Source: Primorskyibacter flagellatus (GTDB lineage: Bacteria; Pseudomonadota; Alphaproteobacteria; Rhodobacterales; Rhodobacteraceae). Taken from it: a DNA stretch of 64,000 nt. The notes under the pieces were generated by a model. It was given only the letters and a program-made list of their open reading frames with translations. It searched no databases and was not told where the DNA came from. The stretch lies in NCBI RefSeq assembly GCF_900176485.1, contig NZ_FWYD01000019.1, forward strand, positions 1 through 64,000. Direction: 5' to 3'. Position 1 is the stretch's first letter, and each line of letters opens with the position of its first letter. The position numbers and the translations under genes are program-made. Below are positions 2,515-50,563 of this stretch, piece after piece.

Positions 2515-2516
2515 AA

Positions 2517-11240: not shown

Positions 11241-11246
11241 CGCCCA

Positions 11247-15414: not shown

Positions 15415-15427
15415 AACAAACGCTGCC

Positions 15428-16222: not shown

Positions 16223-16223
16223 T

Positions 16224-17387
16224 CTAACCTCCTGATGGGATGGTCGTGGATGGGATGGAAATGCGGGCCGGGGTCATATCGGCCATGAACGCTTCCGCGA
16301 GACGTTGCTCGGCCATGCGCGCCTGTTGATCGGCAGAGAGCGGGATCGTCCTGGCGGCGCGCAGCTTGAGCAGGGCAGAGCCGATCAGCGTCGCTTCGGC
16401 CTTCATCATGGTGTTGAGGTCATAGGCGTCTTTGGGGTCGCTGGTGCCGCTGATCTGGGTGATCAGGGCGCGGATACGCAGCAGCGCCTCGCGCGCTGTG
16501 GCGATCTGATACTGGCCGTAATAGATCGAGCTGTTGCCGACATAGGAATACTCGGCCAGAGCGTAATAAGCCGGGTCGATCGTGCCCAAGGCATCCGCGC
16601 CACCGACCTTCGCCAGATACTCGTTATAGAACCGGGGAATGCGGGCCACATAGCCTTGCGTCTCGGCGTAGGGAGGAACGCCGCCATATTTGGTGACGGC
16701 ACCCGGGCCTGCATTATAGGCCGCAAGGGCATGGATGATGTTGCCCCCGAAGTTTTGCAACTGTTCGGCCAGGTAGCGCGCCCCGCCGGTGACTTGCAGA
16801 TAGGGGTCTTCATAATACCCAGGGTAGACGCCGAGATATTGCGCCGTTGACGGGATGATCTGCGTGAGGCCAAAGGCGGCCGCAGGCGATCGCGCCCCGA
16901 TCTGAAACGCGCTTTCCTGTTTGATGAGGGCTTGCAGCAGACACCGCCACTGGACGCGCGACAGGCCAGCGGCCCCCACGCCTGCCAGATGGTAGGTGTC
17001 TGCCGCCCCCCTTATGATGATTTGCTCGATGGTTTCTCTTGCGTCACCGAAAAGGTGACGTCCTGCGGGGTTTGCGACCGGCCCGTAGACGTCCTCCAGC
17101 GGGGCTGCGCCGTTTGTGCTGTCGCCCACCATGAACGTGCCGTCATAGCTGGACACGCCCTCAAAAGCGGCCAGGATCTCATCTATCGTCTGAAGTTGCT
17201 GTTCCTCGTATTGGCGAATGCGGTCGCGACCGACCAGCTTGTTTTCCTGAAGCGCAATATCCTCAACGCGGCTCGTCAGCTTCGACGCTTCCAGCTGCAC
17301 CGCCCGCGTGTCCATGACCGGCACGCCCTGCGCCTGCGTTTGCAGGGCCAGGGCCGAACAGACAACAATGAGGGCGTTGCGCATCAT
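16224..17387 (-). CDS. Lytic transglycosylase with VirB5-like flanks (SLT-VirB5 chimera)
   Basis: A 387-residue secreted protein. After the signal peptide (MMRNALIVVCSALALQTQA) comes QGVPVMDTRAVQLEASKL, closely resembling the start of the adjacent mature VirB5. Residues about 140-260 are a soluble-lytic-transglycosylase domain with catalytic E158 (KQESAF), GLTQ (173-176) and AAYNAGPGAV (222-231). The C-terminal 120 residues are helical and end in ARISIPSTTIPSGG, again like the VirB5 tail. It should cut peptidoglycan for channel passage. A separate virB1 with its own SLT domain lies at the operon start, so the system has two. The stop is 1 bp before virB5. Confidence 0.85.
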   Translation of the reverse strand: MMRNALIVVCSALALQTQAQGVPVMDTRAVQLEASKLTSRVEDIALQENKLVGRDRIRQYEEQQLQTIDEILAAFEGVSSYDGTFMVGDSTNGAAPLEDVYGPVANPAGRHLFGDARETIEQIIIRGAADTYHLAGVGAAGLSRVQWRCLLQALIKQESAFQIGARSPAAAFGLTQIIPSTAQYLGVYPGYYEDPYLQVTGGARYLAEQLQNFGGNIIHALAAYNAGPGAVTKYGGVPPYAETQGYVARIPRFYNEYLAKVGGADALGTIDPAYYALAEYSYVGNSSIYYGQYQIATAREALLRIRALITQISGTSDPKDAYDLNTMMKAEATLIGSALLKLRAARTIPLSADQQARMAEQRLAEAFMADMTPARISIPSTTIPSGG

Positions 17388-17393
17388 GGCCGG

Positions 17394-17732
17394 TCATCCC
17401 CCGCCAGCTTTGATTGTGCCGTCCGACTTGAGGACGCGCGACAGCGCCTCCGTCAGTTTCAGCGCGCCATCTTCCCCCAATTCGATCAGGGCCGTATCCT
17501 GCGCGGCAGGCTGACCCGCCCCGAAGGACGCGGAAGACCCGCAGATCTGGGGAGCCGTGCCGCTACTCACAAATTTGAAGGTGGGTTGTTCGGGCGGCAG
17601 GCGTTCGAAGTCGCAATTCCCGGTCAGCGTCCCGTCTTTGGTGAAGCACTTGCAGCGCGCTTCTTGCGGGGGACCGACACAGGCGGACACCAGGAGCAAC
17701 CCTGCGGTCAGAAAAACGGCTTTCATCTTCAT
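17394..17732 (-). CDS. Lipoprotein in the virB operon (VirB7 position)
   Basis: A 112-residue lipoprotein with a clear lipobox (LLVSAC, lipidated C18), followed by a second cysteine cluster (RCKCF, GNCDF, QICG). The ATG at 17732 overlaps the virB4 stop (ATGA), which fixes the start. In Agrobacterium VirB7 is a short lipoprotein that pairs with VirB9. This one is longer and placed after virB4, so it may be the functional equivalent, but homology is not evident. Confidence 0.7.
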   Translation of the reverse strand: MKMKAVFLTAGLLLVSACVGPPQEARCKCFTKDGTLTGNCDFERLPPEQPTFKFVSSGTAPQICGSSASFGAGQPAAQDTALIELGEDGALKLTEALSRVLKSDGTIKAGGG

Positions 17733-20098
17733 AGGGCTTTCTCCCAAAATCTTGGATGTTCCCGGTAATCCTCGCCAACAACGTCCTGGCCGGCCCGACC
17801 GCCGCCAAGCACGTGCAGCAGGTTTCCAAGGGACGAGAGGTCTATGTCGCAGAGGGTCGAGGTGATCTGATCCCTGACGAGGCAGGATCTGGTCAGCGAC
17901 TTGTTCATGCAGAAGGAGAGCTCTTTGTCGGTCAGCCGCAGATCGGCGAAATCCTCGGCATTGGCCTGCGGGTTCGGCAGCAGAACCTGCGTGGAAAAGC
18001 TGGAGAAAATATCCGAGCCGACCTTGCTGTCTGACAATTGCCTTGGGTTTTGCGCCATCATGACGACGACGCAGTTTTGCTTTCTGAGACTGACCAGCCA
18101 GCCTTTGATGCGTGCGGCAAAATAGGGGTTGTCCACGGCCTTCCAGGCTTCATCAATCAGAACGACCGTCCGGCGTCCGTCGCGCAGCTGGCGTTCGACG
18201 CGGCGGAAGATGTAGCTCAGCACCGCCATGCGTTCGCGTTCGCTATCGGCATCCATGATTTGCGTCAGATCGAAGCCGACAATATCGCCCTGCAGGGAAA
18301 AGCTGTCCGGACGGCCAGACCCGAAGACCCAGCCATACCGCCCGCCGTGCTGCCATTCCTGCACCAGCATCGACAGCGCCCCGTCGTCGTCGGTCATGTT
18401 GAACTGCTTGGCAAAGTCGGTCCAGTTTCGCAAGCCTGCAGGCGCGTCCGCATTGGCCTGGCACACTTCAATGATCCGCCGGTTCTGAGTAGGGGTCATG
18501 GTGCCGTTCGGATTGATGATCCGCGACAGCCAGTCGGCCAGCCATCCCACGCCCTCTTCGTCCACCTCGACCGAGAGCGGATTGAGCCCGGTTGGCTCGC
18601 CTGCAAGGATTGTCGAGTAAGACCCGCGAAGGCCGCGCGTGGCCATTTCCAGACCGCGCCGGTAATCGAAGACGAAAATCCGCGCGTCCACACGGGCCAG
18701 CTGCGCCATGAGAAACCCGGCCAGAAGCGATTTGCCGGTGCCTGTCTTGCCGATGATGATCGAGTGGCCTGCCGTTGGAGCGCCGCTTGGTGAGCCGTTC
18801 TCATGGAAGTTGAACTGGCGCAGAGATCCATCGACGGTGGGGAAGAGGGCGACGGGTGAGGCCCATGGAACGTCGCCCGCGCCCGCGCCAAGGTTGGAGC
18901 GGTGCAGCGAGCAAAAGTCGGCCATGTTGGTGTTGGTCGTGACGGCCGTGCGCGCCCGCATCCAGCCATTGCCCGGCCATTGCGAGAAGTAATGCGCCTT
19001 GAGCAGCCAGCTGTCGCGGATCAGCTTGACGCCCGCGCCTGCCGCAACCCCGTCCATCAGGGACAGGGTTTCCTTTAGTTTCTGCAAGCTTGGAGAGATC
19101 AGTGAAACTGTTGCGTGATGTTCGCCAAGCCCTTGTGAGCCGGTCAGAACATCCTCTTCCAGCCGTGCGGCCTGTTCGGCCAGCGAGACCCGCGCGTCAT
19201 CTGTCGATCGCATGATCTTGCGTTGCCGCGATACAAGGTCGGCCGCCTTGTTCCTGGAAAGAGGCGAAAAACTCTGCGAAATGACATAATCGCAGGGCAG
19301 CGCGAACTCATCGAACATCGTCACCCAGGTTTCCGGGCTGTAATCCTTGATCGCGCGCAGATCGCCGTAGCGCGTGCCGTGGACGCCATCGAAGAGCTTG
19401 AAGTGATCGGCTTCAAACGTCACCCGCTCGTTGAAGACCACATCGGCCAGCACCGAGAGGTTCCGGGGGTGACGGATGGGCGTCTCGACGCCGGTCTGGA
19501 TCGAGTTCAGAAACCCCAGCAGCTCGCCGGATTGTTCGCTGAGAACCCGTGTTGACATATCGCCAAGGGCTGCGCGGAAGAAGCGTATGATTTCTGAGAC
19601 TTGCTCGATGGACCTCGCGTCTTTTGCCCGCGTGTCCGACGTGTTCTTTCTCGACAGTCCTCCCACCGCTGCGCGAATGCTGGACGCTGTGGGGTGCTTC
19701 ATCACCGATATGGTCAGGCTGCGGTCGCGCAGGCCGCGCGCAGTGAGGTGGCCCCGCCAGCGCCGGTCGATCTCTTCGGCCATGCCGCCGCTCATGATGG
19801 GCGCCACAAGATCATTCGCCGCCAGGGCTCGGCTGATCTTGTGGACATAGATGGCAAACCCGGCGGGGATCTGACCCAACACCGCCGCGATGGCATCGCG
19901 CACCACTTCAAGCTCGTTTGTCCTGGTCGTCAGGGAGTCCAGCCCTTCGACGCGCAGGCATTGCAGGATGCCGTTGTCGCGCAGCCGGATTGTGGTGTCG
20001 TCTATCAGCGATACATAAGGCAGGTGCATCATGCCCGCAGGCACCAGCTTGTCACTTGCCACGAAGCTGAGCAGGGAGGGCGAGAGATTAAGGGCCAT
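17729..20098 (-). CDS. virB4: VirB4 (CagE/TrbE) T4SS ATPase
   Basis: The largest T4SS ATPase, needed for pilus biogenesis and transfer. The 789 residues have an N-terminal CagE-type domain and a C-terminal RecA-like motor with Walker A GKTGTGKS (450-457) and Walker B VVLIDEAWK (D649/E650). The motif MMAQNPRQLSDS follows in the sensor region. The length is normal. It overlaps virB3 by 11 bp. Confidence 0.96.
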   Translation of the reverse strand: MALNLSPSLLSFVASDKLVPAGMMHLPYVSLIDDTTIRLRDNGILQCLRVEGLDSLTTRTNELEVVRDAIAAVLGQIPAGFAIYVHKISRALAANDLVAPIMSGGMAEEIDRRWRGHLTARGLRDRSLTISVMKHPTASSIRAAVGGLSRKNTSDTRAKDARSIEQVSEIIRFFRAALGDMSTRVLSEQSGELLGFLNSIQTGVETPIRHPRNLSVLADVVFNERVTFEADHFKLFDGVHGTRYGDLRAIKDYSPETWVTMFDEFALPCDYVISQSFSPLSRNKAADLVSRQRKIMRSTDDARVSLAEQAARLEEDVLTGSQGLGEHHATVSLISPSLQKLKETLSLMDGVAAGAGVKLIRDSWLLKAHYFSQWPGNGWMRARTAVTTNTNMADFCSLHRSNLGAGAGDVPWASPVALFPTVDGSLRQFNFHENGSPSGAPTAGHSIIIGKTGTGKSLLAGFLMAQLARVDARIFVFDYRRGLEMATRGLRGSYSTILAGEPTGLNPLSVEVDEEGVGWLADWLSRIINPNGTMTPTQNRRIIEVCQANADAPAGLRNWTDFAKQFNMTDDDGALSMLVQEWQHGGRYGWVFGSGRPDSFSLQGDIVGFDLTQIMDADSERERMAVLSYIFRRVERQLRDGRRTVVLIDEAWKAVDNPYFAARIKGWLVSLRKQNCVVVMMAQNPRQLSDSKVGSDIFSSFSTQVLLPNPQANAEDFADLRLTDKELSFCMNKSLTRSCLVRDQITSTLCDIDLSSLGNLLHVLGGGRAGQDVVGEDYREHPRFWEKAL

Positions 20099-27524: not shown

Positions 27525-28445
27525 TTACCCCTTTGGACGAAACGGCTGAGCCAGCGACACCGGGAAGTCCAGTGCCATAGCCTGCCGGTTCCGGGAGATC
27601 AGAACGAGGACGGCGATAGTGGCCAGATATGGCAGCGCGGACAGAAGCTCCGAAGGAACCTTCAATCCGATTGCCTGCCCCTGCAGCTGCAGGATTGTCA
27701 TACCGCCGAACAGCCAAGCCCCCAAGATCACCCGTTTGGGACGCCAGGCGGCGAAAACCACCAGCGCCAGAGCAATCCAGCCGCGGCCTGCGGTCATGTT
27801 TTCCACCCAAAGCGGCGTATACACAAGCGACAGGTAGGCGCCGCCGAGCCCGGCCATGGCACCTCCGAACATCACAGCAAGGTAGCGGATCTTGATGACT
27901 TCGAAGCCGATGGCATGTGCGGAATCCGGGCTTTCGCCGATGGCGCGCAAAGCCAGCCCGGCTTTCGTTCGGTAGAGGAACCAGCTGACGGCGCCGAACA
28001 TCACGAAGGAGAAATAGACTAGCGGGTCGTATTGGAAGAACATCGCCCCGATCACCGGAATATCGGAAAGCCCGGGTAAGTGAATCGGCTGGATGGCATC
28101 CACCGGTGTGCTGCCGAAGCCGCGGCCGATGAAGGCGGAAACCCCGGTGCCGAAAATCGCCAGCGCCAGACCCGCCGCGTATTGGTTGGTCATAAACGTA
28201 AGCGCCAGCACGCCGAACAGGAGCGAGGCGGCGGCGCCGGCCAGGACCGCGGCAGCAAGCGCCACGATCATCGGCAGGCCCGCAAAATGCGCCCACACCC
28301 CGAAAGCGGCGCCGACCAGCATCATGCCTTCGATACCGAGGTTCAGGACACCCGATTTCTCGACCACCAGCTCGCCAAGCGCGGCGAAGATGAGTGGGGT
28401 TGCCGCGATGATCGTCGCGGCGAACATGGAAATGAACAGATCCAT
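27525..28445 (-). CDS. BMP-type (nucleoside/purine) ABC transporter permease 2
   Basis: A 306-residue inner-membrane permease of the branched-chain-amino-acid-like (BPD_transp_2) family as used with BMP binding proteins. It has eight or more hydrophobic spans and the diagnostic ALGELVVEKSGVLNLGIEGMM near the N-terminus and LRAIGESPDSAHAIG in the cytoplasmic loop. It corresponds to NupQ/YufQ-type subunits. The start overlaps permease 1's stop by one base. It is the last gene of the operon, followed by a terminator. Confidence 0.92.
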   Translation of the reverse strand: MDLFISMFAATIIAATPLIFAALGELVVEKSGVLNLGIEGMMLVGAAFGVWAHFAGLPMIVALAAAVLAGAAASLLFGVLALTFMTNQYAAGLALAIFGTGVSAFIGRGFGSTPVDAIQPIHLPGLSDIPVIGAMFFQYDPLVYFSFVMFGAVSWFLYRTKAGLALRAIGESPDSAHAIGFEVIKIRYLAVMFGGAMAGLGGAYLSLVYTPLWVENMTAGRGWIALALVVFAAWRPKRVILGAWLFGGMTILQLQGQAIGLKVPSELLSALPYLATIAVLVLISRNRQAMALDFPVSLAQPFRPKG

Positions 28446-29515
28446 CAGTGGGCCCTCACAGCGGTTTTGCGGATGCGGAAATTGATCAGGAAGTTGCTGG
28501 CCAGCAGGAAGAACAGCAGCATCCCCTGGAAGATCAGCGCGATCGAGGACGGCAGGCCCAGCGACATCTGCACCGTTTCACCACCCAGGTAGAGCAGCGA
28601 CAGCAACAGCCCGCCCAGCACGATGCCAAAGGCGTTCAGGCGACCGATGAAGGCCACGATGATGGCGGCAAAGCCGTAGCCGGGCGAAATTTGCGGCGAA
28701 AGCTGCCCCAGCGGGCCTGCGGCTTCCATCATTCCTGCTAGTCCGGCTGCGGCACCCGAGGCCAGCAGGCCGATCCAGATCGAGGCCGAGGCGTTGAAGC
28801 CGGCAAACTTGGCCGCCGCGGGGGCCACGCCCCCCACCGACATCTTGTAGCCCATGAAGCTGCGCTCGGTGAACAGCCAGGTGACGGCGACAACGATTCC
28901 GGTGAAGAAGATTGAGGTGTTCAGCCGGTAGGAATAGTCGAAGACCTCAAACATGCCGTTGTAGGGCAACAGTGCGGTCTGCGGGAAATTGAAGCCTTCC
29001 GGATCGCGCCAGGGGCCGTGAACCAGATAGGACAGGACCAGCGCGGCGACATAGGTGAGCATCAGCGTCACCAGGATCTCGTTGGTGTTCATGCGATCCT
29101 TGAGGAAGGCCGGTATGGCGGCCCATGCGATACCGGCCAGCATGCCTGCAATGACCATCGAAGGCAGCAGCAGCGGGCTTTCCTGCCAGGGCGCGAACAG
29201 GCCGACGCCGGTGGCGGCGACCGCCCCCATGATCAGCTGCCCCTCCGCGCCGATGTTCCAGACATTCGCGCGGAAACCGATGGCAAGCCCGCAGGCGATC
29301 AGGATCAGCGGAGAAGCTTTCAGCAGCCACTCGGATATCCCGTTCATCGTGGTAAGCGGCTCGATGAAGAAGGTGTAGAGCGTCACGAATGGATTGTAGC
29401 CCAGTGACAGGAAGAACAGGGAGCTGATGACAACGGTCAGCCCGGTTGCGATCAACGGGGCGGCAATAGCCATCTCGCGCGAGGGTTCGGCGCGGGCTTC
29501 GATCTTAAACAGCAT
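28445..29515 (-). CDS. BMP-type (nucleoside/purine) ABC transporter permease 1
   Basis: A 356-residue permease of the same family (NupP/YufP-type), with LIACGLAIGFRANVWNIGAEGQ, AAIPAFLKDRMNTNEIL and KFAGFNASASIWIGLL. The ATG at 29515 is preferred (GGAAAG 9 nt upstream) over the one at 29539; both lie inside the end of the ATPase gene, so translation is coupled. It forms the heterodimeric channel with permease 2. Confidence 0.92.
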   Translation of the reverse strand: MLFKIEARAEPSREMAIAAPLIATGLTVVISSLFFLSLGYNPFVTLYTFFIEPLTTMNGISEWLLKASPLILIACGLAIGFRANVWNIGAEGQLIMGAVAATGVGLFAPWQESPLLLPSMVIAGMLAGIAWAAIPAFLKDRMNTNEILVTLMLTYVAALVLSYLVHGPWRDPEGFNFPQTALLPYNGMFEVFDYSYRLNTSIFFTGIVVAVTWLFTERSFMGYKMSVGGVAPAAAKFAGFNASASIWIGLLASGAAAGLAGMMEAAGPLGQLSPQISPGYGFAAIIVAFIGRLNAFGIVLGGLLLSLLYLGGETVQMSLGLPSSIALIFQGMLLFFLLASNFLINFRIRKTAVRAH

Positions 29516-31052
29516 ATCTGACACTTTCCGTTTGCACATCGGGCGCAGCGGGTTTGCTGCCGGTGCCTGTCATGAGAAGGCCGACTTCTTCAACGTTGGT
29601 ATCGGCGCGGTTAAGCGACGGCGTCAGCTCGCCATTGCATATGACGTAGAGCCGGTCGCAGATCTCGAACAGCTCCTCCAGCTCTTCGGAGATCACAATA
29701 ACTGCCTGGCCGGAGCGGCTGAGGTCGATCAGTGTCTGCCGCACATAGGCGGCGGCGCCAACATCCACGCCCCATGTAGGCTGCGAGACAAGCAGCACCT
29801 TGGGGGAAAGCTCGATTTCCCGGCCCATGATGAACTTCTGCAGGTTGCCGCCGGACAGGCCGTGCGCCTTGGCGCTGGGGCCGCTGGCCTTGACGTTGTA
29901 TTTTTCGATCACGTCGGCGGCGAAGTCCCGTGCCTTCCGTCGGTTGGCCATCCCGTGTTTGACCATGCCCAGCCGGTGGGCGGTCAGCAGCGCATTTTCC
30001 GACAGCTCATAGGGCGGCACAGCGCCGCGGCCAAGCCGTTCTTCCGGCACGAAACCCAGGCCCAGATCGCGGCGGCGACCGGCATTGAGGTGGCCGATCG
30101 GACGCCCTTCAAGGACGATGTCTTCGGCAGCGCTGGTGATCTTCTCGCCGCTGATGGCGGCGGCCAGTTCGCCCTGGCCATTGCCCGAGACGCCGGCGAT
30201 TCCGACGATCTCGCCGCCAAAGACCTCAAGACTCACCGCTTTCAGCGATGTGCCGGTAACCGTTTCCGGTGCCAAGTTCAGGTTGTTCACCGACAAGAGC
30301 GGCATGTGGCTGAGTTCCGATGGCTCCACCATCATTTCCGGCAGGTCCTTGCCCACCATCATGCGGGCCAGCTCGGCAGAGGTCGCCTGACGCGGGTCGG
30401 TCTCGCCGGTGACTTTGCCTCCGCGCAGCACGGTGGCGCTGTGGCAAAGCTCGCGCACCTCGTCCAGCTTGTGGCTGATGTAGAGAATGCTGCAGCCTTC
30501 GTCAGAGAGCTGGCGCAGCGTCTCAAACAGCTTCCGCACCGCCTGCGGGGTGAGAACCGAAGTCGGCTCATCCAGGATCAGCAGCTTGGGCTGGCGCAGC
30601 AGGCAGCGGACAATCTCCACCCTCTGCCGTTCCCCGACCGACAGCGAAAGCACCAGGCGGTCAGGATCAATTGGCAGCCCGTAGCGTTCCGAGACTTCGC
30701 GGATCCGGAGAGCAAGTCCCTTTAGGTCCATCTTGCCGGGCATCGACAGGGCGATGTTTTCAACCACCGTGATTGATTCAAACAGGGCGAAATGCTGGTA
30801 GACCATTTCGATTCCCAGTTCCCGCGAAACCGCGGGGCCATGCTCGGGCACAGCCTTGCCGTCACAGTAGATTTGCCCTGCATCCGCCGGGGTAGCCCCG
30901 TAGATGATTTTCATGAGCGTGCTTTTCCCGGCACCGTTTTCGCCCAGCACGGCGTGAATTTCGCCGGGGAGAACGGACAGCGAGATGTCATCATTGGCAA
31001 GCACACCAGGGTATGACTTGCTGATGCCACGGAGTTCCAATCGTGGTGTCAT
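29505..31052 (-). CDS. BMP-type (nucleoside/purine) ABC transporter duplicated ATPase
   Basis: A 515-residue protein with two ABC ATPase halves in tandem, as in sugar and nucleoside importers. The first half has Walker A GENGAGKST, signature LSVGERQR and Walker B LLILDEPTS. The second has degenerate GVSGNGQGE, signature LSGGNLQK and VLLVSQPTWG, where Walker B lost its usual Asp-Glu pair. Degeneration of the second site is normal in this family. It follows the binding-protein gene after an 85-bp gap with a hairpin. Confidence 0.93.
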   Translation of the reverse strand: MTPRLELRGISKSYPGVLANDDISLSVLPGEIHAVLGENGAGKSTLMKIIYGATPADAGQIYCDGKAVPEHGPAVSRELGIEMVYQHFALFESITVVENIALSMPGKMDLKGLALRIREVSERYGLPIDPDRLVLSLSVGERQRVEIVRCLLRQPKLLILDEPTSVLTPQAVRKLFETLRQLSDEGCSILYISHKLDEVRELCHSATVLRGGKVTGETDPRQATSAELARMMVGKDLPEMMVEPSELSHMPLLSVNNLNLAPETVTGTSLKAVSLEVFGGEIVGIAGVSGNGQGELAAAISGEKITSAAEDIVLEGRPIGHLNAGRRRDLGLGFVPEERLGRGAVPPYELSENALLTAHRLGMVKHGMANRRKARDFAADVIEKYNVKASGPSAKAHGLSGGNLQKFIMGREIELSPKVLLVSQPTWGVDVGAAAYVRQTLIDLSRSGQAVIVISEELEELFEICDRLYVICNGELTPSLNRADTNVEEVGLLMTGTGSKPAAPDVQTESVRYAV

Positions 31053-32334: not shown

Positions 32335-33021
32335 CTATGCTTCTTGGGACACGTAGCGGGAGAGTGCCTCCCGTGTGTCGATTTCCGGCTGGGGCTCATC
32401 ATCCATGAGATACCCCTTGACCACGTTATGATGGTGGACTGCGATCAGCTCCTGGGCTTCGGCGATCTTGCCTTGCTCCAGCAGGTCAATCAGCACCCCG
32501 TGGTCGTGCAGCAAGCCGCAATAGTCGAAGCGGGAACTGACCAGTGAGCGCAGCAGGGCAGTCCGGCGGATAAGCTGAGCATGCATCTGCTGTATGACTG
32601 TGTTGCGCGACAAACGGACCAGAACTTCATGAAACCCTGATCCCAGCTGATCGGACAACTGGTCGTTTTTTTCCTCGACCGCTTTATGCTGCAGTTCCAC
32701 GTGGTGGCGCAGTTCAGCCCAGCCCTGCGCACCCAGCCTGCCGGAAAGCTGAGCTGCGACGCCCTGCTCAAGTATGGTGAGCGCATCGTATATCTCTACA
32801 GCCTCTCTGTAGGTTGGCTTGGACACGAACGCTCCGCGATTGCGCTCCATTGTGACCAGCCCGTCTTCGCTGAGGCGGATCAGCGCTTGCCGCACGACGG
32901 CGCGGCTGACGCTGAAAATGTCCGCCAATGTCTGCTCGCTCAGCTTGCAGCCGGGCAGCAGTTGTTTGTGAATGATTGCCCGAGTGACAATCTTGGATAT
33001 CTCATCTGAACGGTTCCCCAT
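32335..33021 (-). CDS. GntR/FCD-family transcription regulator
   Basis: A 228-residue FadR-subfamily regulator: N-terminal winged helix (ISKIVTRAIIHKQLLPGCKL, TLADIFSVSRAVVRQALIRL, GLVTMERNRGAFV) and a C-terminal helical FCD effector domain with a plausible metal site (FHEVLVRLS, LLHDHGVLIDLL, HHHNVVKGYL). The ATG at 33021 (MGNRSDE) is used; upstream in-frame codons lack family sequence. It lies between the leftward transporter operon and the rightward oxygenase operon and probably represses both until the substrate or an intermediate is bound. Confidence 0.92.
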   Translation of the reverse strand: MGNRSDEISKIVTRAIIHKQLLPGCKLSEQTLADIFSVSRAVVRQALIRLSEDGLVTMERNRGAFVSKPTYREAVEIYDALTILEQGVAAQLSGRLGAQGWAELRHHVELQHKAVEEKNDQLSDQLGSGFHEVLVRLSRNTVIQQMHAQLIRRTALLRSLVSSRFDYCGLLHDHGVLIDLLEQGKIAEAQELIAVHHHNVVKGYLMDDEPQPEIDTREALSRYVSQEA

Positions 33022-33069
33022 GGCGATGGCACGACCTTCCTGATCATATCTCTGTTGGCAAAAGCCTGT

Positions 33070-33160
33070 GTGTCGACACGTCCAGCGCCGCCTGCGCTGG
33101 ACATACATTGATTTATAATCTTTTCATGATTGAAAGACTATCAGGATATTATTGAAAGTC
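33070..33160. promoter_or_regulatory. Divergent promoter region with candidate GntR operators
   Basis: Two direct copies of ATTGAAAG(A/T)C lie at 33129-33138 and 33151-33160, exactly 22 bp apart (two helical turns). A perfect palindrome GTGTCGACAC lies at 33070-33079 near the regulator start. They sit in the 228-bp AT-rich gap between the GntR gene and the first oxygenase gene. The pair of in-phase sites is a good candidate for cooperative regulator binding. Confidence 0.6.
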
Positions 33161-33249: not shown

Positions 33250-34107
33250 ATGACATGCAACGACAGGATATTGATCGACGACTGGCACGTCGTTGCCGAT
33301 CTCGATCAGCTTCTGCAGGCCGGTTCCTGCAAGACATACCTATTGGGTGTTGAAGTTGCCGTTACCGCAGGTCGGGACGGTCAAGTGGCCGTAACGCTTG
33401 CTGACGGGAAGCAGCAACTGCCTTGTCAGATCAAATACGGGTTTGTGTGGACCAGCCTTGGATCTCCGGAACGAGAGACCATTCACATACCCGAAGCATT
33501 CGAAGACGACCGTTACATCATCAGCGGCGGCTCATTCCCAGTTAAAGTGTCGGGTTTGCGGGTGGTCGAGAATTTCCTGGACATGGGGCACTTTCCCTTT
33601 GTCCACAACGGCTGGTTGGGTGAAGAGCCGCATACCGAGGTTGCTCCCTATGAAGTGGAGCTGACTGAAGATAACGAGATCATCGCGACAGAGTGCTACT
33701 TTCATCAGCCGGTGGCATCCCCCACTGCCGAAGGCGGGATCGAGGTCGAGTACAAGTACAGGGTCTACCGCCCCTACATCGTGGCGCTCTACAAGACCAA
33801 CCCGCTTTACCCGGACCGCAAGGACTACATCGTCCTGTTCATCCAGCCAGTCGGGCCGGAGGAATGCGTGGTTCACAACATGCTCTGCTACATAAAGGAA
33901 GGCATGAAGGAACCCGATATCCGCTGGTTCATGCAGCTGATCTTTGCCCAGGACAAACCAATCCTGGAAAACCAGATTCCGCGGCGGCTGCCGCTGGACC
34001 CGCGCGCCGAAACACCGATCCGGGCAGACAAGGTTGCGATCCTGTACCGCCGTTGGCTGCGAGATCACTCTGTGAGTTATGGCGCCATCCCGGCAACCGA
34101 AGCATGA
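33250..34107 (+). CDS. Rieske-less oxygenase catalytic subunit 1 (NdmC-like N-demethylase)
   Basis: A 285-residue homologue of ring-hydroxylating oxygenase alpha subunits that keeps the mononuclear iron domain but has lost the Rieske cluster. The iron motif is complete: E107-x3-D111-x2-H114-x4-H119 (VENFLDMGHFPFVH), with a likely third ligand D235 (QDKPILENQ). The N-terminal part still reads like a Rieske domain shell (WHVVADLDQLL, YLLGVEVAV, IKYGFVWTSLGSP), but the CxH and CxxH segments are deleted. This is the architecture of NdmC, the caffeine N7-demethylase subunit, which takes electrons from the Rieske domain of NdmD. A good ribosome site (AGGGAG) precedes it. First gene of the operon. 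Confidence 0.85.
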   Translation: MTCNDRILIDDWHVVADLDQLLQAGSCKTYLLGVEVAVTAGRDGQVAVTLADGKQQLPCQIKYGFVWTSLGSPERETIHIPEAFEDDRYIISGGSFPVKVSGLRVVENFLDMGHFPFVHNGWLGEEPHTEVAPYEVELTEDNEIIATECYFHQPVASPTAEGGIEVEYKYRVYRPYIVALYKTNPLYPDRKDYIVLFIQPVGPEECVVHNMLCYIKEGMKEPDIRWFMQLIFAQDKPILENQIPRRLPLDPRAETPIRADKVAILYRRWLRDHSVSYGAIPATEA

Positions 34108-34121
34108 CAGGAGGAAAATCC

Positions 34122-35009
34122 GTGTCCAAACCGAAATGCGAAGACCAAGTGGCTTTGAACCTTTGGTACACGATTGCACCGATCGCGGAATTAGAAGAGC
34201 CGGGAGCACAGCAAACAATCCTGCTGGAGCAGCAGATCGCCTATGCGCGAAACGCTGCGGGAGAAGTGGTCGTCTGGGCACATGAAGGTGTGCCGGGCGG
34301 TGTTCCGGAGCAGAACACTTTGCCGGTACAGGAGCGCTACGGCTATGTCTGGACAACGCTGGGCTCGCCAAATAGCGATATATTCCCAATTCCAGAGTAT
34401 GCTGAAGCAGACCGCCGCAACATTCATGCTGCAACATTTGGCGTGAATGTTTCGGCTCCGCGGCTGGTCGAGAATTTCCTGGATATGGGACACTTTCCCT
34501 TTGTCCACACCGACATCCTCGGCGCAGAGCCGCATACCGAGGTGAAAGAGTATTTCGTCGAAGTATCGGAAGAGCGTGACGAAATCATCGCGTCGAACTG
34601 CAAGTTCTGGCAGCCGATGGCGGCTGCGGCCTCCAGCGGCGGTGCCGACGTGGACTACATCTACCGGGTGCCGCACCCGTTCTGCTCGGTGCTCTACAAA
34701 TCCAGCCCCTTGGATGAGAGCCGAAAAGACGTGATTGCGATCTTCATCCAGCCGTTCAACCAGGAACAGGTTAGGGTGCATATGCTTCTCTCTTTGCTGG
34801 ACGACGCCAACAACGACACGGATATCCGGCTGTTTCAGCAGACCATCTTTGGCCAGGATAAGCCAATCCTGGAAAACCAGTACCCCAAGCGCCTGCCGCT
34901 GGACCCAAGGGCAGAAACGCCCATTCGCGCGGATAAATCCGCAATCGCCTACCGCAGGTGGCTGTCCGGGAAAGGGATCACCTATGGCGTGATCCCCCCG
35001 GCTGCGTGA
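34122..35009 (+). CDS. Rieske-less oxygenase catalytic subunit 2 (NdmC-like N-demethylase)
   Basis: A 295-residue tandem paralogue of the preceding protein, with the same iron motif at E117, D121, H124, H129 and D246 (QDKPILENQ), and the same collapsed N-terminal Rieske shell (ERYGYVWTTLGSPN). The tail LPLDPRAETPIRADKSAI is nearly identical in both. A GTG start at 34122 follows CAGGAGG by 7 nt; an ATG at 34104 overlapping the previous stop lies before this ribosome site and is less likely. The two may form a heteromer or act on different N-methyl positions. Confidence 0.85.
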   Translation: MSKPKCEDQVALNLWYTIAPIAELEEPGAQQTILLEQQIAYARNAAGEVVVWAHEGVPGGVPEQNTLPVQERYGYVWTTLGSPNSDIFPIPEYAEADRRNIHAATFGVNVSAPRLVENFLDMGHFPFVHTDILGAEPHTEVKEYFVEVSEERDEIIASNCKFWQPMAAAASSGGADVDYIYRVPHPFCSVLYKSSPLDESRKDVIAIFIQPFNQEQVRVHMLLSLLDDANNDTDIRLFQQTIFGQDKPILENQYPKRLPLDPRAETPIRADKSAIAYRRWLSGKGITYGVIPPAA

Positions 35010-35036: not shown

Positions 35037-36761
35037 ATGATGTCCGACCTGCACAGCAACTGGTATCCGATCGCCTCAAGCTCGGATCTGCCGAAACGCC
35101 ATGTATACCAAGCGCAGCTTCTGGGGAGGGAATTCGCCGTCTGGCGCGCCGACGACGGCCACGTCAATGTCTGGGAGAACCGTTGTCTGCACCGCGGCGT
35201 GCGGCTTTCGATTGGTATTAACAACGGCACCGAGCTGAAGTGCCAGTACCACGGCTGGCGTTATGCCAACCGCACCGCCGGCTGCACTTACATTCCGGCG
35301 CACCCGGCGGATGCGCCGGCCCGCACCATCTGCAACAACACCTACCCGGCAATCGAATCCCACGGGCTGGTCTGGTCCGGCGAAGAAGCCTCTGGCGATC
35401 TGCTTTCGCTGGATGGCTTTGACAGCGCAACCGTGCTGCGGGCGGTGCCGGTCTTTGCGCCGATGAATATGGTTGCCGAAGCGCTGCTGGGCTACGGCTG
35501 GGACGACAGCTGCAAGGGCGCGGCCAACGATGACGGCTCGGTCACTGTGACCGCCGGCGACGGCACCGCCGTCCGCATCTTTGTGCAGCCGATGGACAGC
35601 AACCACTCGGTGATGCGCGGCCTGGTCAACCAGGCGCCTGCCGGTGCTGGGCGGGCCGAGCTGCTGCAGACCCATAGCTGGCTGATGCAGGAACTGCGTG
35701 ACCGTGTCGAGGTGCTGGCCGCCAAACAGGAGGCCCCTGCTCCATATGAGCCGGTCATAGCCAAGGTCTCCGAAGACCTGGTCGACATCCCGGCGCTCGG
35801 CACCGACGGACGCAAGGCCGAACTGCGGGTGCAACTGGTCAAGAAAGAAATGACCGCCGAGGGCATCGTCAGCCTGCGCCTGGAACCGATCAAGGGCCAG
35901 TTGCCGACCTTCCAGCCCGGCGCGCACATCGACGTGCATCTGCCCAACGGTCTGGTGCGGCAGTACTCGATCACCAACGGGCCGGGCGAGACCGATCACT
36001 ACACCATCGGCGTCAAGCGCGAAGGGGACGGCCGCGGCGGTTCGGCGGCGGTGCATGACAGCCTGCAGGAAGGCGATGTGCTGGCGATCTCCGCACCGCG
36101 CAACAACTTCCCGCTGCGCCGCGATGCCGAGCACACCGTGTTCATCGCCGGCGGCATTGGCGTTACCCCGATGATCGCCATGGCACGGGCGCTGAATGCC
36201 CAGGGCCTGAGCTTCGAATTCCACTACTTCGTGCAGTCGGACGACCACGTGGCCTTCAAACAGCAGATCGGCGAATTCGAACGCGCTCTGACCATTCATA
36301 AAGGTCTGAGCCCAGAGGCAACCGGTGCCAAACTGAAGGAGGTTCTAGCGGAGCCTGGTTTCGCCCGCCACGTCTATATCTGCGGCCCCGGCCCGATGCT
36401 GGAGGCGACCCGCGGGATCGCGGCAAGTCAGGGCTGGACGGATGAAGCCGTGCATTTCGAGTATTTTGCCAATACCGCCGAGGTGGATGACAGCACCGCA
36501 TTCGAGGTCGATCTTGCCCGCTCGGCGCTGACCTTGCAGGTGCCCGCAGGCAAGACAATTCTGGAGGTGCTGCGTGAACACGGCATCGACATGCCGAGCT
36601 CCTGCGAGCAGGGCGCCTGCGGCACCTGCCGTTGCGGCGTGATCGAGGGTGAAGTGATCCATCAGGATGTTTACCTGAGCAACGCTGAGAAAGCCGAAGG
36701 CAAATCCATCATGACCTGCGTGTCGCGCGCAGCGTCCGACCGTCTCATCCTGGATATCTGA
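35037..36761 (+). CDS. Rieske-FNR-ferredoxin reductase (NdmD-like)
   Basis: A 574-residue three-part electron carrier. Residues about 1-105 are a complete Rieske [2Fe-2S] domain (C50, H52, C69, H72). Residues about 270-480 are a flavin/NAD(P)H reductase module (RQYSI for FMN/FAD, IAGGIGVTPMI for the nucleotide). Residues about 490-574 are a plant-type ferredoxin with C523, C528, C531 and C561. Most Rieske oxygenase reductases lack the first domain. The extra N-terminal Rieske is the distinctive feature of NdmD, where it supplies the cluster missing in NdmC. It directly follows two catalytic subunits lacking that cluster, which fits exactly. Confidence 0.88.
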   Translation: MMSDLHSNWYPIASSSDLPKRHVYQAQLLGREFAVWRADDGHVNVWENRCLHRGVRLSIGINNGTELKCQYHGWRYANRTAGCTYIPAHPADAPARTICNNTYPAIESHGLVWSGEEASGDLLSLDGFDSATVLRAVPVFAPMNMVAEALLGYGWDDSCKGAANDDGSVTVTAGDGTAVRIFVQPMDSNHSVMRGLVNQAPAGAGRAELLQTHSWLMQELRDRVEVLAAKQEAPAPYEPVIAKVSEDLVDIPALGTDGRKAELRVQLVKKEMTAEGIVSLRLEPIKGQLPTFQPGAHIDVHLPNGLVRQYSITNGPGETDHYTIGVKREGDGRGGSAAVHDSLQEGDVLAISAPRNNFPLRRDAEHTVFIAGGIGVTPMIAMARALNAQGLSFEFHYFVQSDDHVAFKQQIGEFERALTIHKGLSPEATGAKLKEVLAEPGFARHVYICGPGPMLEATRGIAASQGWTDEAVHFEYFANTAEVDDSTAFEVDLARSALTLQVPAGKTILEVLREHGIDMPSSCEQGACGTCRCGVIEGEVIHQDVYLSNAEKAEGKSIMTCVSRAASDRLILDI

Positions 36762-36770
36762 GGTGCCAGC

Positions 36771-37439
36771 ATGCTGAAACTCTACGACTACGAACTCTCC
36801 GGCAATTGCTACAAGCTGCGCCTTCTGCTCTCATTCCTGGGGGTCGAGTACAAATCAGAGCTGATCGACTTCTATCCGGGCAACCAGCACAAATCCCCGG
36901 AATTCCGCCAGATTAACCCTCTCGGGCAACTGCCGGTCATCGACGACAACGGCCTTGTGCTGCGCGATGCCCAGGCGATCCTGGTCTACCTGGCCTCGAA
37001 ATATGACCCGTCGTGCAAATGGTACCCTCGGGACAATCCGGAGATGCTGGGGCAGATCTCGCAATGGCTGGCTTTTGCTGACGGGATCACCGGAACGGCC
37101 TCGGCAGCCCGCTTGCATGACGCGCTGTTCTACAACCACATCGACGTCGAGGCCGCGAGGGCTGGAGCACACCGGTTGTTCCGGGTGCTGGATGAACATC
37201 TCTTCTTTGCGGAAGAGGCGGGTCAGGACTGGATCTGCCCTGGCGACCACCCCACCATCGCTGACATTGCCTGCTTCCCTTACATCATGCTTTCCGAGGA
37301 AGGCGGCATTCCACGCATCGATTACCCGGCAATCCGCCGCTGGAGTGACCGTTTCAAGCGCATCCCGGGCTTTACCGTGATGTCGGGCGTCTTCCCTGCA
37401 GGGCCAGCCGCGAAAGACAGCTCAAAAGCAGTTGCCTGA
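36771..37439 (+). CDS. Glutathione S-transferase-like protein (NdmE-like position)
   Basis: A 222-residue GST fold: thioredoxin-like N-terminus (LYDYELSGNCYKLRLLLSFL, INPLGQLPVIDD, LRDAQAILVYLA) and an all-helical C-terminus (ADIACFPYIML, RRWSDRFKRIPGF). In the caffeine system the GST-like NdmE is required to hold NdmC and NdmD together and is thought to be structural. Its location 9 bp after the NdmD-like gene suggests the same. An alternative is a glutathione role with formaldehyde, since the next enzymes use S-hydroxymethyl-glutathione. A GAGG site lies just before the ATG. Confidence 0.85.
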   Translation: MLKLYDYELSGNCYKLRLLLSFLGVEYKSELIDFYPGNQHKSPEFRQINPLGQLPVIDDNGLVLRDAQAILVYLASKYDPSCKWYPRDNPEMLGQISQWLAFADGITGTASAARLHDALFYNHIDVEAARAGAHRLFRVLDEHLFFAEEAGQDWICPGDHPTIADIACFPYIMLSEEGGIPRIDYPAIRRWSDRFKRIPGFTVMSGVFPAGPAAKDSSKAVA

Positions 37440-38602: not shown

Positions 38603-39718
<1,116 letters not shown>

Positions 39719-39721
39719 TCG

Positions 39722-40558
39722 ATGGAGCTGATCGAAAACACCACATGTTTCGGCGGCAAAAATGCAGTCTACAGGCATCGCTCAGATGCCTGTGGCTGCG
39801 ACATGACCTTTGGTATCTACCTGCCGCCGCAAGCGGAAACCACATCGGTTCCGGTCCTGTGGTATCTCTCCGGCCTGACCTGCACCCATGAAAACGCCAT
39901 GTCCAAGGCGGGATTGCAGCAATATGCCGCCAAACGCGGCTTGGCGCTGGTCTTTCCGGATACGTCGCCGCGCGGCGAAGACGTGGCCGATGACGAAGCC
40001 TATGATCTGGGGCAGGGTGCGGGCTTTTATGTAAACGCGACCCAAAGACCGTGGGCACCGCATTTCCGCATGTACGACTATGTTACCCGGGAGCTTTATG
40101 CGCTGGTGTGCGGCGCGTTTCCGGTCACTGAGAAGCAGGGGATCACAGGCCATTCCATGGGCGGTCATGGCGCGCTGACCCTGGCCATTCAAAACCCCGA
40201 GCAATTCCGCTCAGTTTCGGCCTTTGCTCCGATTACCAACCCCACCAAGTCGGATTGGGGGCGCAAGCAATTGGCGGCATACATCGGCACGGATGAAACC
40301 ATGTGGCGGGACTATGACGCCAGCCGACTGCTTCGCAGCAAAGGCTGGCAGCAGGATATCCTCGTTGACCAGGGCGGCGAGGATCAGTTTCTCGATCTGC
40401 TGCGCCCGCAGGAACTTGTGGAAGCTGCGAAAGACGTTTCAGTGCCGCTCTCCTACAGGGCGCATAGCGGCTACAATCACAGCTATTACTTTGTCGCCAG
40501 CTTTGCCGAAGAGCACGTTAACTGGCATGCAGACAGGCTACGAGGGCCTGCTGCGTGA
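39722..40558 (+). CDS. fghA: S-formylglutathione hydrolase
   Basis: Hydrolyses S-formylglutathione to formate and glutathione, completing formaldehyde disposal. The 278-residue esterase-D type protein has SGLTCTHENAM (oxyanion region), GHSMGGHG with nucleophile S145, an Asp in the QGGEDQFL region and the catalytic His in SGYNHSYYF. It starts 3 bp after the dehydrogenase stop. No formate dehydrogenase is present in this window. Confidence 0.95.
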   Translation: MELIENTTCFGGKNAVYRHRSDACGCDMTFGIYLPPQAETTSVPVLWYLSGLTCTHENAMSKAGLQQYAAKRGLALVFPDTSPRGEDVADDEAYDLGQGAGFYVNATQRPWAPHFRMYDYVTRELYALVCGAFPVTEKQGITGHSMGGHGALTLAIQNPEQFRSVSAFAPITNPTKSDWGRKQLAAYIGTDETMWRDYDASRLLRSKGWQQDILVDQGGEDQFLDLLRPQELVEAAKDVSVPLSYRAHSGYNHSYYFVASFAEEHVNWHADRLRGPAA

Positions 40559-41246: not shown

Positions 41247-42287
41247 ATGGAACACTATGCCGGTTTGGACGTGTCGCTGAAAGAGATTTCGATCTGTGTC
41301 GTGGATGAGGATGGAGCGATCGTAGCGCGCGGGGCCTGTCCTGCCGACCCCGAAGGCGTCGCAGGCTGGTTTCGCAACCGCGATCTCGAACCTCGACGCA
41401 TCGCACATGAGAGCGGCATGCTCTCGATCTGGTTGCAGCGAGGGATGGCTCGGCTGGGGTTGCCGGCAACCTGCATCGATGCGCGCAAGGCGCACAAAAG
41501 CCTCTCGGCGCGACTGAACAAGTCAGACGCTGCGGACGCGGAAGGACTGGCGCAGCTCGCACGGACCGGCTGGTTCACTCCGGTGCACATCCGAAGCGAA
41601 GACGCCGATCGACTGCGCTGTCTGGTCGGAGCGCGGGAACGGTTGATCCGACTGCGAAAAGACCTCGAAGGGCACATCCGCGGCGTCCTGAAGACCTTCG
41701 GCATCCGCATGACCGGCATCGGCCAGGGGCGGCAGAGGCAGGCGTTCCGGGATCAGCTCGCGGCAGCTGGGGAGAGTGATACGGTTCTGCGCGCAATTTC
41801 TGATGGGTTTATCGCCGCACATGCAACGCTGTGCCAAGCAGCAGATGACTTGGACAAAGTCGTGAAAGGGAGGGCCGAAGCCCATCCTGTCGCGCGCCGC
41901 CTGATGACGATCCCCGGCGTCGGCCCGGTCAACGCGCTAAGCTTCATCGCCCTGATCGATGACCCTAACCGTTTTAGCCGAGCATCCGATGTCGGTGCTT
42001 TCCTCGGGCTCACGCCGAAACGCCATCAATCCGGTGAAATCGACTGGTCCGGGCGCGTGTCGAAATGCGGTGATGGCGCCATGCGCGGTCTGCTGTTCGA
42101 GGCCGCTTCCTGCCTGATCCGCCAGGTCAAACGCTTCTCGCCGCTCAAGAGTTGGTCTGTCCGACTGGCCGGACGGCGCGGATTCCGCAAGGCGGCGGTC
42201 GCCACCGCGCGCAAGATCGCCGTGCTGATGCTGACGCTGTGGAAGAACGAAACCGACTATCAATGGACAAAGGAGGCCACTGCCTGA
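41247..42287 (+). CDS. IS110-family transposase (DEDD/serine recombinase)
   Basis: A 346-residue intact transposase. The N-terminal RuvC-like DEDD domain has D8 (GLDVSLKE), E55 (AHESG), D94 and D97 (NKSDAADAEG). The C-terminal Transposase_20 domain has IPGVGPVNALSFIALI and FLGLTPKRHQSGEIDWSGRVSKCGD, which includes the conserved Ser region. IS110 enzymes recombine DNA guided by a bridge RNA transcribed from a noncoding end of the element. GAGGAG precedes the ATG. Confidence 0.95.
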   Translation: MEHYAGLDVSLKEISICVVDEDGAIVARGACPADPEGVAGWFRNRDLEPRRIAHESGMLSIWLQRGMARLGLPATCIDARKAHKSLSARLNKSDAADAEGLAQLARTGWFTPVHIRSEDADRLRCLVGARERLIRLRKDLEGHIRGVLKTFGIRMTGIGQGRQRQAFRDQLAAAGESDTVLRAISDGFIAAHATLCQAADDLDKVVKGRAEAHPVARRLMTIPGVGPVNALSFIALIDDPNRFSRASDVGAFLGLTPKRHQSGEIDWSGRVSKCGDGAMRGLLFEAASCLIRQVKRFSPLKSWSVRLAGRRGFRKAAVATARKIAVLMLTLWKNETDYQWTKEATA

Positions 42288-48739: not shown

Positions 48740-50563
48740 ATGACAGACCAAAGCAAAATCATTGCCGCCACCGACGAGCAAATCCCCTTTGCAGACCTCT
48801 ATCTGCACGACATGAACCCGCGCAGCATCGTGAGCGAGGACGCGATCGAAGCCCTTGCCGAGAACATCCGCCAGCTTGGCTTGATCCAGAACCCCGCAGG
48901 CTTGCGCGACGAGACAGGCAAGGTTGGCATCGTGGCAGGTGGCCGGCGGTTTCGCGCGCTTGCCTTGTTGCAGGACGATCCCCGGTTTCAGACCGTGACC
49001 GTCCGCATGGCCCCCGATTTTGATACCGCCGCGTTTTGGGCCACCAGCGAGAACGCGCAACGCGAAGCCCTGCACCCGGCAGATGAAATCCGCGACTTTG
49101 GCGCGATGGAGCGGCGCGGCGTCACCGTGCCCGCAATCGCCGTGGCCTACGGCGTGACCGAGCCGCATGTTTACCGCAGGCTCAAACTGGCAAGCCTTCC
49201 CGCGCCCGTGCTGGACGCGCTGAAAGCCGGAGACATCAGCCTCTCCAATGCCGCCGCCTTCACCATCAGCGAGGACGAGGCGAACACGCTGGCCGTGCTG
49301 GAACAGGTGCGCGGTCAGAACTACAGCGAACACCGCATCAAGGACATGCTCAAACCCAACGCCGTGCGGCAGACCGACCGCCGCGCTGTCTTTGTCGGGC
49401 TGGACGCTTACGAGGCCGCAGGCGGTCGCATGATCAGTGACCTGTTTGCCGAGCAGACCTTTCTGGACGATGTGGCCCTTCTGGACGAGTTGTTCGCGGC
49501 CAAGCTGGACGCCGAGGCCCAGGCCCTGACCGCCGTAGGCTGGAAATGGGCCGAGGCGTCGGACATTACCTATATCGGCTGGAACTTCATTGAAGATCGC
49601 AAGCTGGACCGCATCTATGCCGAGGAAGGCGACCTGACCGAAGCCGAGGCCGAACGGTATGACGAACTGGCCGAAATGATGGAGGCGGATGTTCTGGACG
49701 AGGCAGGCCAAGCCGAGTTTGCCGCTCTGGAAAACATTCTGGCAGGCGCGTTCAGCGACGAGCAGAAGGCCGTTTCCGGCGTTGTGATCCATGTCGATCA
49801 GAGCGGCAGCGTGCAGACCATCGAGGGGCTTATTACCCGCGAAGATAGGCCCGCCGCGATTGAGGCCGGATTTCTGAGAACATCGGCCCACAAGACCGAG
49901 GCCGCGCCGAAATCGCCTATCTCCGCCAAACTGGCCGACGATCTGTCCCGCATCGCCAAGGGCGCGCGGCAACACGCGGTTTTGCGTAATCCTGATCTGT
50001 TGCTCGACCTTCTGGCCTATCAGTTGAGCCACGATCTGCGTTGGAACAACCCGCTTGGCGTGTCGCTTACGGATGTTCCGAACTGGCCCACCACCGAGGC
50101 CGAAGGCTACGGCTTGGACGAAAGGCTGACCAGCAACCCGCCGCGCGATATGTGGCAGACCAAAGACCTTGCCGCGTCGTTCCGGGCTTTCCGCAAGAAG
50201 GGAGCCGAGCATGTGCGCGGCGAGTTGACCCGGTTCCTTGCCGCGCAATACCGGGGCGGCGACGAGAAGCTGGCCGCATTGGTGGACAAGGAAACCAAGC
50301 CGAGCATCCGCGAGGTCTGGACGCCCACCGCCGAGAACTTTTTCAAGCGCGTGGGTGGCCCCTATCTCAACGATCTGTGGTGCGATCTTCTGGACCTTGC
50401 CGAAGATCACCCCACCGCCACCACCTTTGCCAAGCTGAAAAAAGGCGAGAAGGCCGAGAAGCTGGAAAGCCTGTTTGGCGATGCGTCCATGCGCAGCGCC
50501 CTTGGCATCACCGACGAGCAGGCCGCGCGGATCGACGCTTGGTTGCCCGAAGGCATGGAATGA
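48740..50563 (+). CDS. Large ParB-like DNA-binding protein
   Basis: A 607-residue protein with a ParB/Spo0J N-terminal nuclease/CTPase-like domain (PFADLYLHDMNPR, ENIRQLGLIQNP, IVAGGRRFRALA at about 64-75, the ParB box variant GGRRFRA). An HTH region follows (VPAIAVAYGVTEPHVYRRLKLA). The remaining 400 residues form a long acidic C-terminal region, unlike the roughly 300-residue partition ParB. No ParA is adjacent, so a role in gene regulation or plasmid accessory functions is more likely than segregation. Related large proteins often accompany DUF3768 and DNA methyltransferases on plasmids. Confidence 0.85.
   Translation: MTDQSKIIAATDEQIPFADLYLHDMNPRSIVSEDAIEALAENIRQLGLIQNPAGLRDETGKVGIVAGGRRFRALALLQDDPRFQTVTVRMAPDFDTAAFWATSENAQREALHPADEIRDFGAMERRGVTVPAIAVAYGVTEPHVYRRLKLASLPAPVLDALKAGDISLSNAAAFTISEDEANTLAVLEQVRGQNYSEHRIKDMLKPNAVRQTDRRAVFVGLDAYEAAGGRMISDLFAEQTFLDDVALLDELFAAKLDAEAQALTAVGWKWAEASDITYIGWNFIEDRKLDRIYAEEGDLTEAEAERYDELAEMMEADVLDEAGQAEFAALENILAGAFSDEQKAVSGVVIHVDQSGSVQTIEGLITREDRPAAIEAGFLRTSAHKTEAAPKSPISAKLADDLSRIAKGARQHAVLRNPDLLLDLLAYQLSHDLRWNNPLGVSLTDVPNWPTTEAEGYGLDERLTSNPPRDMWQTKDLAASFRAFRKKGAEHVRGELTRFLAAQYRGGDEKLAALVDKETKPSIREVWTPTAENFFKRVGGPYLNDLWCDLLDLAEDHPTATTFAKLKKGEKAEKLESLFGDASMRSALGITDEQAARIDAWLPEGME

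Follow-up and report, generated by a model that had tools for sequence, protein, structure and literature searches.

Genes A and B lie in tandem in a 64,000-nucleotide stretch of Primorskyibacter flagellatus DNA (hereafter the window) and encode proteins with the Rieske-oxygenase fold and an intact mononuclear iron site whose own Rieske cluster is gone. The reading that we favor, with a probability of roughly 0.7, is that they are the two catalytic subunits of a single split Rieske oxygenase of the NdmCDE type, in which the Rieske cluster would reside on the product of the next gene, D, electrons would cross a subunit boundary, and the reaction would be N-demethylation of a purine, with A and B differing in substrate or methyl position. 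A and B would lack a cluster of their own because D appears to supply one to both. The evidence comprises the deletion and the kept iron site in A and B, the Rieske domain and the alpha subunit–like N-terminal half of D, the order and conservation of the operon, and a phylogeny in which the Rieske-less proteins form one branch with an old split between A and B. The genes concerned, and the two N-terminal domains of D, have the following window coordinates:

27525..28445, minus strand, ABC permease
28445..29539, minus strand, ABC permease
29505..31052, minus strand, ABC transporter ATPase, so annotated at the corresponding place of locus L014
31138..32232, minus strand, BMP/PnrA-like solute-binding protein; closest solved sequence AtzT (6pi5), E 2.6e-96
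32335..33108, minus strand, divergent GntR/FCD regulator, found in the same place in L014 and L053
33250..34107, plus strand, gene A, Rieske-less catalytic subunit (NdmC-like, A lineage), 285 aa, ATG start
34122..35009, plus strand, gene B, Rieske-less catalytic subunit (B lineage), 295 aa, GTG start behind AGGAGG
35037..36761, plus strand, gene D, NdmD-like Rieske-reductase, 574 aa, with Rieske domain, degenerate catalytic domain, flavin/NAD reductase, and plant-type ferredoxin
35037..35387, plus strand, D residues 1-117, intact Rieske domain (PF00355, E 1e-19; ligands C50, H52, C69, H72)
35388..35747, plus strand, D residues 118-237, degenerate oxygenase catalytic domain without iron-site motif (hhalign E 8e-6)
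36771..37439, plus strand, gene E, NdmE-like protein with a GST fold; 58% identity to the GST encoded in the P. putida ndm-type cluster L017
37757..38530, plus strand, outer-membrane protein (DUF5020), a possible channel of uncertain operon membership; 22%, E 3e-14 to the OmpK beside the P. putida ndmC-type cluster L015
38603..39718, plus strand, frmA, S-(hydroxymethyl)glutathione dehydrogenase (formaldehyde), TIGR02818 above cut-off
39722..40558, plus strand, fghA, S-formylglutathione hydrolase, TIGR02821 above cut-off

The A and B proteins are 51% identical to each other. VanA_C was the sole Pfam match of either (E 1.6e-18 for A and 1.2e-19 for B), the Rieske domain being absent from the matches, and the pattern CxH-x(8-40)-CxxH was not matched in either protein. 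A sequence-only reading of this DNA had assigned a full iron site to both, and all of its residue numbers were confirmed: E107/D111/H114/H119/D235 in A and E117/D121/H124/H129/D246 in B. We take D111 of A to correspond to the bridging Asp of Rieske oxygenases. An earlier report treats that Asp as the bridge between the Rieske cluster and the iron (PMC5033481). Measured against a canonical alpha subunit, A and B possess the iron triad and the bridging Asp and lack the same-chain CxH...CxxH cluster. The same reading had the Rieske segments deleted from both proteins with the surrounding shell kept, and alignment with full-length Rieske oxygenases reveals just such a missing block: CPHRG...C.YHGW...VPA.P.F.PP is absent from A and B, and the flanking strands are kept. 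The missing stretch is about 40-50 residues long and spans all four Rieske ligands. The distance separating two shared motifs is 46-49 residues less in A, and 39-42 less in B, than in eight Rieske-bearing relatives; 10 were tried, of which L123 and L125 were not caught by the pattern. Ligands elsewhere in the two proteins and frameshifts were both looked for and neither was found; clean frames, separate starts, and conservation across loci exclude frameshifted or broken Rieske genes. For gene B, there is an alternative in-frame ATG at 34104, upstream of the GTG and overlapping the stop of A.

For the predicted structure of A (pLDDT 89.9 overall, but falling to 57-66 near the iron histidines, at residues 111-130), superposition covered 273 residues with SxtT (Z 30.7, rmsd 2.3) and 262 residues with NdmA (6icn; Z 24.6). 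Conservation among homologs follows the same pattern, with all five iron-site residues present in 125 of 125 Rieske-less homologs and the Rieske pattern in none of the 125. These 125 rows were obtained from 136 ORFs without a Rieske motif by leaving out L001, L002, and L013 (copies, six ORFs), L020 (three ORFs with broken frames), and the low-scoring fragments L093 and L087.

The cluster has disappeared from A and B, as had been claimed, but not from the system, since an intact Rieske domain, overlooked earlier, is encoded by the adjacent gene D. Its CxH..CxxH motif is present in all 84 D-type N termini that remained after four of 88 matches, which lacked the N terminus, were set aside. The reductase half of D (FMN/NAD/ferredoxin, residues 262-574) matches phthalate dioxygenase reductase (2pia; E 2.2e-67), a protein without the N-terminal Rieske/alpha-like half. 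Compared with the solved ferredoxin domain of NdmD, D gave an E of 1.3e-17, and nearly all of D aligns, at 36%, with the NdmD-type protein encoded in L017, the P. putida cluster of ndm type.

About 120 residues separate the Rieske domain of D from its reductase, and as a profile they match the one for the Rieske-less family's catalytic half (E 8e-6). The score was 40.95; the best of 60 column shuffles reached 18.95, and the reversed profile 11.66. Residues 1-250 of D matched the whole NdmC-type profile with an E of 1.6e-14. When a predicted structure of residues 1-256 (pLDDT 90.8) was compared with solved ones, 227 residues superposed on an entire alpha subunit, that of GxtA (Z 20.8, rmsd 2.9), and only about 100 residues on Rieske ferredoxins (Z 15.5-16.0). 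The aligner that gave these values, the second of two, placed the D N terminus on alpha subunits with an rmsd of 2.6-3.0; in Foldseek whole alpha subunits ranked first, yet the fit was loose (TM about 0.67-0.70, rmsd 5.5-11). On the shuffle scores and the structural match to whole alpha subunits, we reject the possibility that residues 118-237 are a mere linker. The iron-site motif was matched in only one of the 84 D-type N termini, that of L070, where it is a stray match (ELVVDALH).

SxtT and SxtDIOX are the closest Rieske-oxygenase sequences among solved structures both for A and B and for the N terminus of D, a common likeness that is consistent with, and no proof of, their descent from a shared ancestor. 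The N terminus of D on the one side and A and B on the other resemble a single architecture that has degenerated in reciprocal ways, and the oxygenase seems to have been rebuilt from complementary degenerate copies. The leftover catalytic half of D is probably functional, likely as the ring position of the Rieske donor. We put forward tentatively, at somewhat less than an even chance, a ring of complementary degenerate alpha copies in which D keeps the Rieske cluster and A and B keep the iron, the leftover domain of D occupying the ring position that presents the cluster; D would then be a shared, exchangeable donor for A, B, or a third paralog, and in some bacteria the donor would be separate from the reductase. 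The general design would be one in which Rieske and iron halves are carried by different subunits and a single donor serves one, two, or three catalysts. If true, it would explain why NdmC needs NdmD and would predict the build of the unsolved NdmCDE complex, it would offer swappable catalytic subunits for N-demethylation, and it would bear on methylated-purine catabolism in rhizobia and related alphaproteobacteria.

Pseudomonas putida CBB5 carries out N7-demethylation of caffeine with the split Rieske oxygenase NdmCDE (PMC4408171, PMC10380055), whose complex contains three each of NdmC, NdmD, and NdmE (PMC10380055). The operon is like that system in having a Rieske-less catalyst, a Rieske domain on the reductase, a GST-like partner, and formaldehyde genes nearby (PMC4408171, PMC10380055, PMC13237722), frmA and fghA standing next to it as formaldehyde genes do in the P. 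putida ndm clusters. Four marks of the NdmCDE type are found here: a Rieske-less catalyst, a Rieske-flavin/NAD-ferredoxin reductase, an adjacent GST-like gene, and placement in the NdmC-side clade. It is unlike NdmCDE in encoding two catalytic subunits rather than one and in having a BMP-type ABC transporter in place of a purine permease. Loci L015-L017, picked by gene layout, served as stand-ins for NdmC, NdmD, and NdmE of CBB5; the identity of A and B to the NdmC-type proteins of these P. putida plasmid clusters is no more than about 43-45%, and the substrate therefore need not be a xanthine. Like NdmA and NdmB, the N1- and N3-methylxanthine demethylases, A and B are two paralogous catalysts of the same fold with one NdmD-type reductase, but NdmA and NdmB each hold their own Rieske cluster. 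No ndmA or ndmB was found beside the operon, and the only other match to A in its own genome is distant and lies on another contig. SxtT and SxtDIOX (GxtA), which besides their sequence likeness are the top full-length folds for A and for the D N terminus, differ in being ordinary alpha3 enzymes of a different pathway with Rieske cluster and iron site in one chain.

The kind of system is already known from NdmCDE; the degenerate alpha-subunit half of D is possibly new. The 2013 NdmCDE study reportedly detected homologous clusters in 18 further organisms, the others being for the most part Sinorhizobium and Mesorhizobium (PMC4408171), and that survey may already show the tandem pair. Our search of the literature, which mostly covered papers outside subscription, came upon no account of catalytic subunits in tandem or in threes, of the degenerate alpha half of D, or of a Rieske protein encoded separately. 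Searches for a 7-methylguanine demethylase and for Rieske-less or tandem wording returned nothing bearing on the locus, and a search by presumed Sinorhizobium meliloti locus tags led to no paper that could be tied to it.

One genome per species was scanned for 84,980 species, giving at least 585 matched stretches, of which at least 573 encode a relative. The Rieske state was scored in 79 distinct loci that are the best of these at least 573 by similarity to A, and for that reason proportions among the 79 are not unbiased frequencies. Rieske-less catalytic subunits had been described as rare; with 79 such loci inspected among the best matches, they are not very rare. One Rieske-less subunit is encoded in 49 of the 79 best loci and two or more in 30, of which four have three. 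The tandem pair had been put down as undescribed, and we too found no literature that names it, but it is not unique, given those 30 loci. A D-type Rieske protein, fused or separate, is encoded in the stretch of 74 of the 79 best loci, a reductase in 72, a GST in 72, a BMP protein in 48, frmA in 14, and guaD in nine. The gene order ABC-BMP-GntR-A-B-D-E also occurs on pSymA of S. meliloti ml47. Among the loci without D, the stretches of L077 and L094 are cut off by a contig end soon past the match; L078 and L091 each hold an orphan third paralog, and their strains have the full set elsewhere (L032 and L030, respectively); and in L069 (Acidimicrobiia), which encodes a Rieske-less subunit, the roughly 10 kb to each side contain no D-type gene, for no apparent reason.

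Seven loci (L018, L019, L074, L087, L147, L149, and L150) encode a separate Rieske protein of 215-358 aa with no reductase attached, and no D-type reductase was found in their stretches. These proteins have 145-275 residues after the cluster, and in the three that were run against Pfam, those of L018, L019, and L087, the Rieske domain was the sole match. In L089, a Rieske piece is followed by a ferredoxin domain, a flavin/NAD domain not being found, and L090 reads alike. Natural B-D fusions in L029, L042, and L063 were rejected, the long frames being out-of-frame extensions of the D frame with the Rieske-less gene present separately.

When genomes were drawn evenly from the phylum, 23 of 398 matched at E<=1e-30; eight of the 23 gave Rieske-bearing proteins, and 15, the P. 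flagellatus genome included, are the remainder by subtraction. A viral collection contributed two loci, L102 and L103, both Rieske-bearing; in these contigs a BMP gene lies beside the relative. Selenocysteine in the Rieske-bearing relatives L120-L125, which have one in-frame TGA, was also rejected, the TGA being an ordinary stop just past the conserved C terminus.

A carefully built tree of 71 rows separates 54 Rieske-less rows from 17 Rieske-bearing oxygenases on a branch supported at 100/100, so that a single loss of the Rieske domain suffices; this agrees with the sequence-only reading, which had dated the loss before the split of A from B. In a quick tree of 141 rows, all 125 Rieske-less rows again fell on one branch (support 98). 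The careful tree contains an A clade of 14 rows (100/100) and a B clade of 15 rows with one further row inside (98/93); A joins NdmC-type rows and Rhizobium separate-Rieske rows at 99/93, and B groups with others. A and B are therefore old paralogs, and a recent tandem duplication giving rise to the pair is rejected on this tree. In the quick tree, the A clade has 34 rows with support of 100, and the wider grouping of A with NdmC-type rows was not recovered. The third Rieske-less paralog, which in L037, L038, L044, and L070 lies upstream of a BMP-type ABC cassette, forms a clade together with the orphans L078 and L091 (support 100 in the quick tree, 100/100 for a subset in the careful tree).

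Of the alternatives, one in which A and B form an obligate heteromer, such as rings that mix the two together with D and E, so that both are needed for one reaction, survives best, and we consider it unlikely. It would fit the tight spacing of the tandem pair in its 30 loci and the finding that 32 of 34 A-lineage rows in the large tree adjoin a second Rieske-less gene, and a precedent exists in NdmA3NdmB3, described as an alpha3-alpha'3 hexamer (PMC12445004, PMC10380055). It is opposed by the 49 of 79 best loci with a single Rieske-less subunit, 44 of which have D in the stretch, and by the third paralog in four pair loci. Two loci bear on it individually: in L053 the operon recurs with B, D, and E, its proteins 80-93% identical, but lacks A, and L074 has a lone A-lineage subunit with a separate Rieske protein and a GST. 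The L053 operon suggests that B does not need A, and the second Rieske-less gene beside 32 of the 34 A-lineage rows suggests that A may depend on B; only L074 and L004/L146, the latter on a 21 kb contig in which no D was seen, lack such a neighbor. We prefer two specificities to an obligate or stabilizing heteromer.

In the favored split oxygenase with two specificities, an N-methylated purine would be imported by the adjacent BMP-type ABC transporter and then oxidatively N-demethylated. A and B would be two catalysts fed by the one Rieske-reductase: NADH would give electrons to D, whose flavin and plant-type ferredoxin would relay them to its N-terminal Rieske cluster, and that cluster would pass them over the subunit boundary to the mononuclear iron in A or B; the product of gene E would be a structural GST-like subunit. 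The two catalysts most probably have different substrates or attack different methyl positions. The released formaldehyde would be cleared by FrmA and FghA; because a second frmA, 90% identical to that at 38603..39718, lies elsewhere in the genome, the operon's frmA and fghA may be dedicated to it. The demethylated purine would proceed through guanine deaminase and xanthine dehydrogenase encoded elsewhere in the genome. No second D was found in the P. flagellatus genome, where two further matches consist of the reductase half only.

From the genomic surroundings we infer a purine substrate, with N-methylated xanthines or guanines as the leading candidates. The operon itself contains no guanine deaminase or xanthine dehydrogenase (XDH), and its genome encodes two guanine deaminases and two xdhB subunits of xanthine dehydrogenase above cut-offs. 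Guanine deaminase lies beside nine of the 79 best loci, in eight cases with a score over the curated threshold and in the ninth as a gene truncated at the edge of its contig, and it accompanies B-like single subunits, from which methylguanine may be guessed as the substrate of B. XDH-type genes are annotated in L014 and L021, and similar genes are found in L047, L049, and L073. The BMP protein is of the PnrA type, and among solved sequences it comes closest to AtzT and to a basic membrane lipoprotein, which we take to be from Brucella. Both of these presumably bind purine-like ligands. Neighbors of the Rieske-bearing relatives were looked at for L119, L121, and L123 among L119-L126: the relatives in L119 and L123 have a BMP gene on one side and an adenosine-deaminase-family gene on the other, and that in L121 has an adjacent BMP gene, surroundings that make a methyladenine route a candidate.

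That the system instead demethylates or hydroxylates some other N- or O-methyl compound, with the purine context incidental, we judge improbable. Such a substrate would suit the action of SxtT and SxtDIOX on saxitoxin-type alkaloids, the breadth of the VanA_C family, and the naming of the binding protein's closest solved relative as an atrazine-binding protein. The guanine deaminase and XDH-type genes just described, the BMP/PnrA-like protein beside 48 of the 79 best loci, and the position of L119 and L123 between BMP and adenosine-deaminase-family genes all point to purines, as does the one characterized relative, which acts on 7-methylxanthine (PMC4408171, PMC10380055). Direct electron supply to A and B from the ferredoxin/flavin domain of D, or catalysis without any Rieske cluster, would accord with the missing cluster of A and B and the plant-type ferredoxin on D but is scarcely credible, given a bridging Asp kept in 125 of 125 Rieske-less homologs, a Rieske motif kept in 84 of 84 D-type N termini, and separate Rieske proteins that persist without an attached reductase in the seven loci listed above.

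Directly downstream of fghA, an IS110-family transposase occupies window positions 41247-42287. Genes of conjugative transfer and of ParB type (coupling protein, TrbL/VirB6, secretion ATPase, TrbI, VirB8, VirB4/TrbE type, ParB-type) are found at 67-2076, 10221-20098, and 48740-50563, suggesting that the operon resides on a mobile plasmid or integrative element. Positions 2445-9566 encode a Type I restriction-modification system (hsdM, hsdS, and hsdR), with a PrrC-type anticodon-nuclease-like gene at 5294-6472 between hsdS and hsdR (PADLOC PrrC, E 3e-128).
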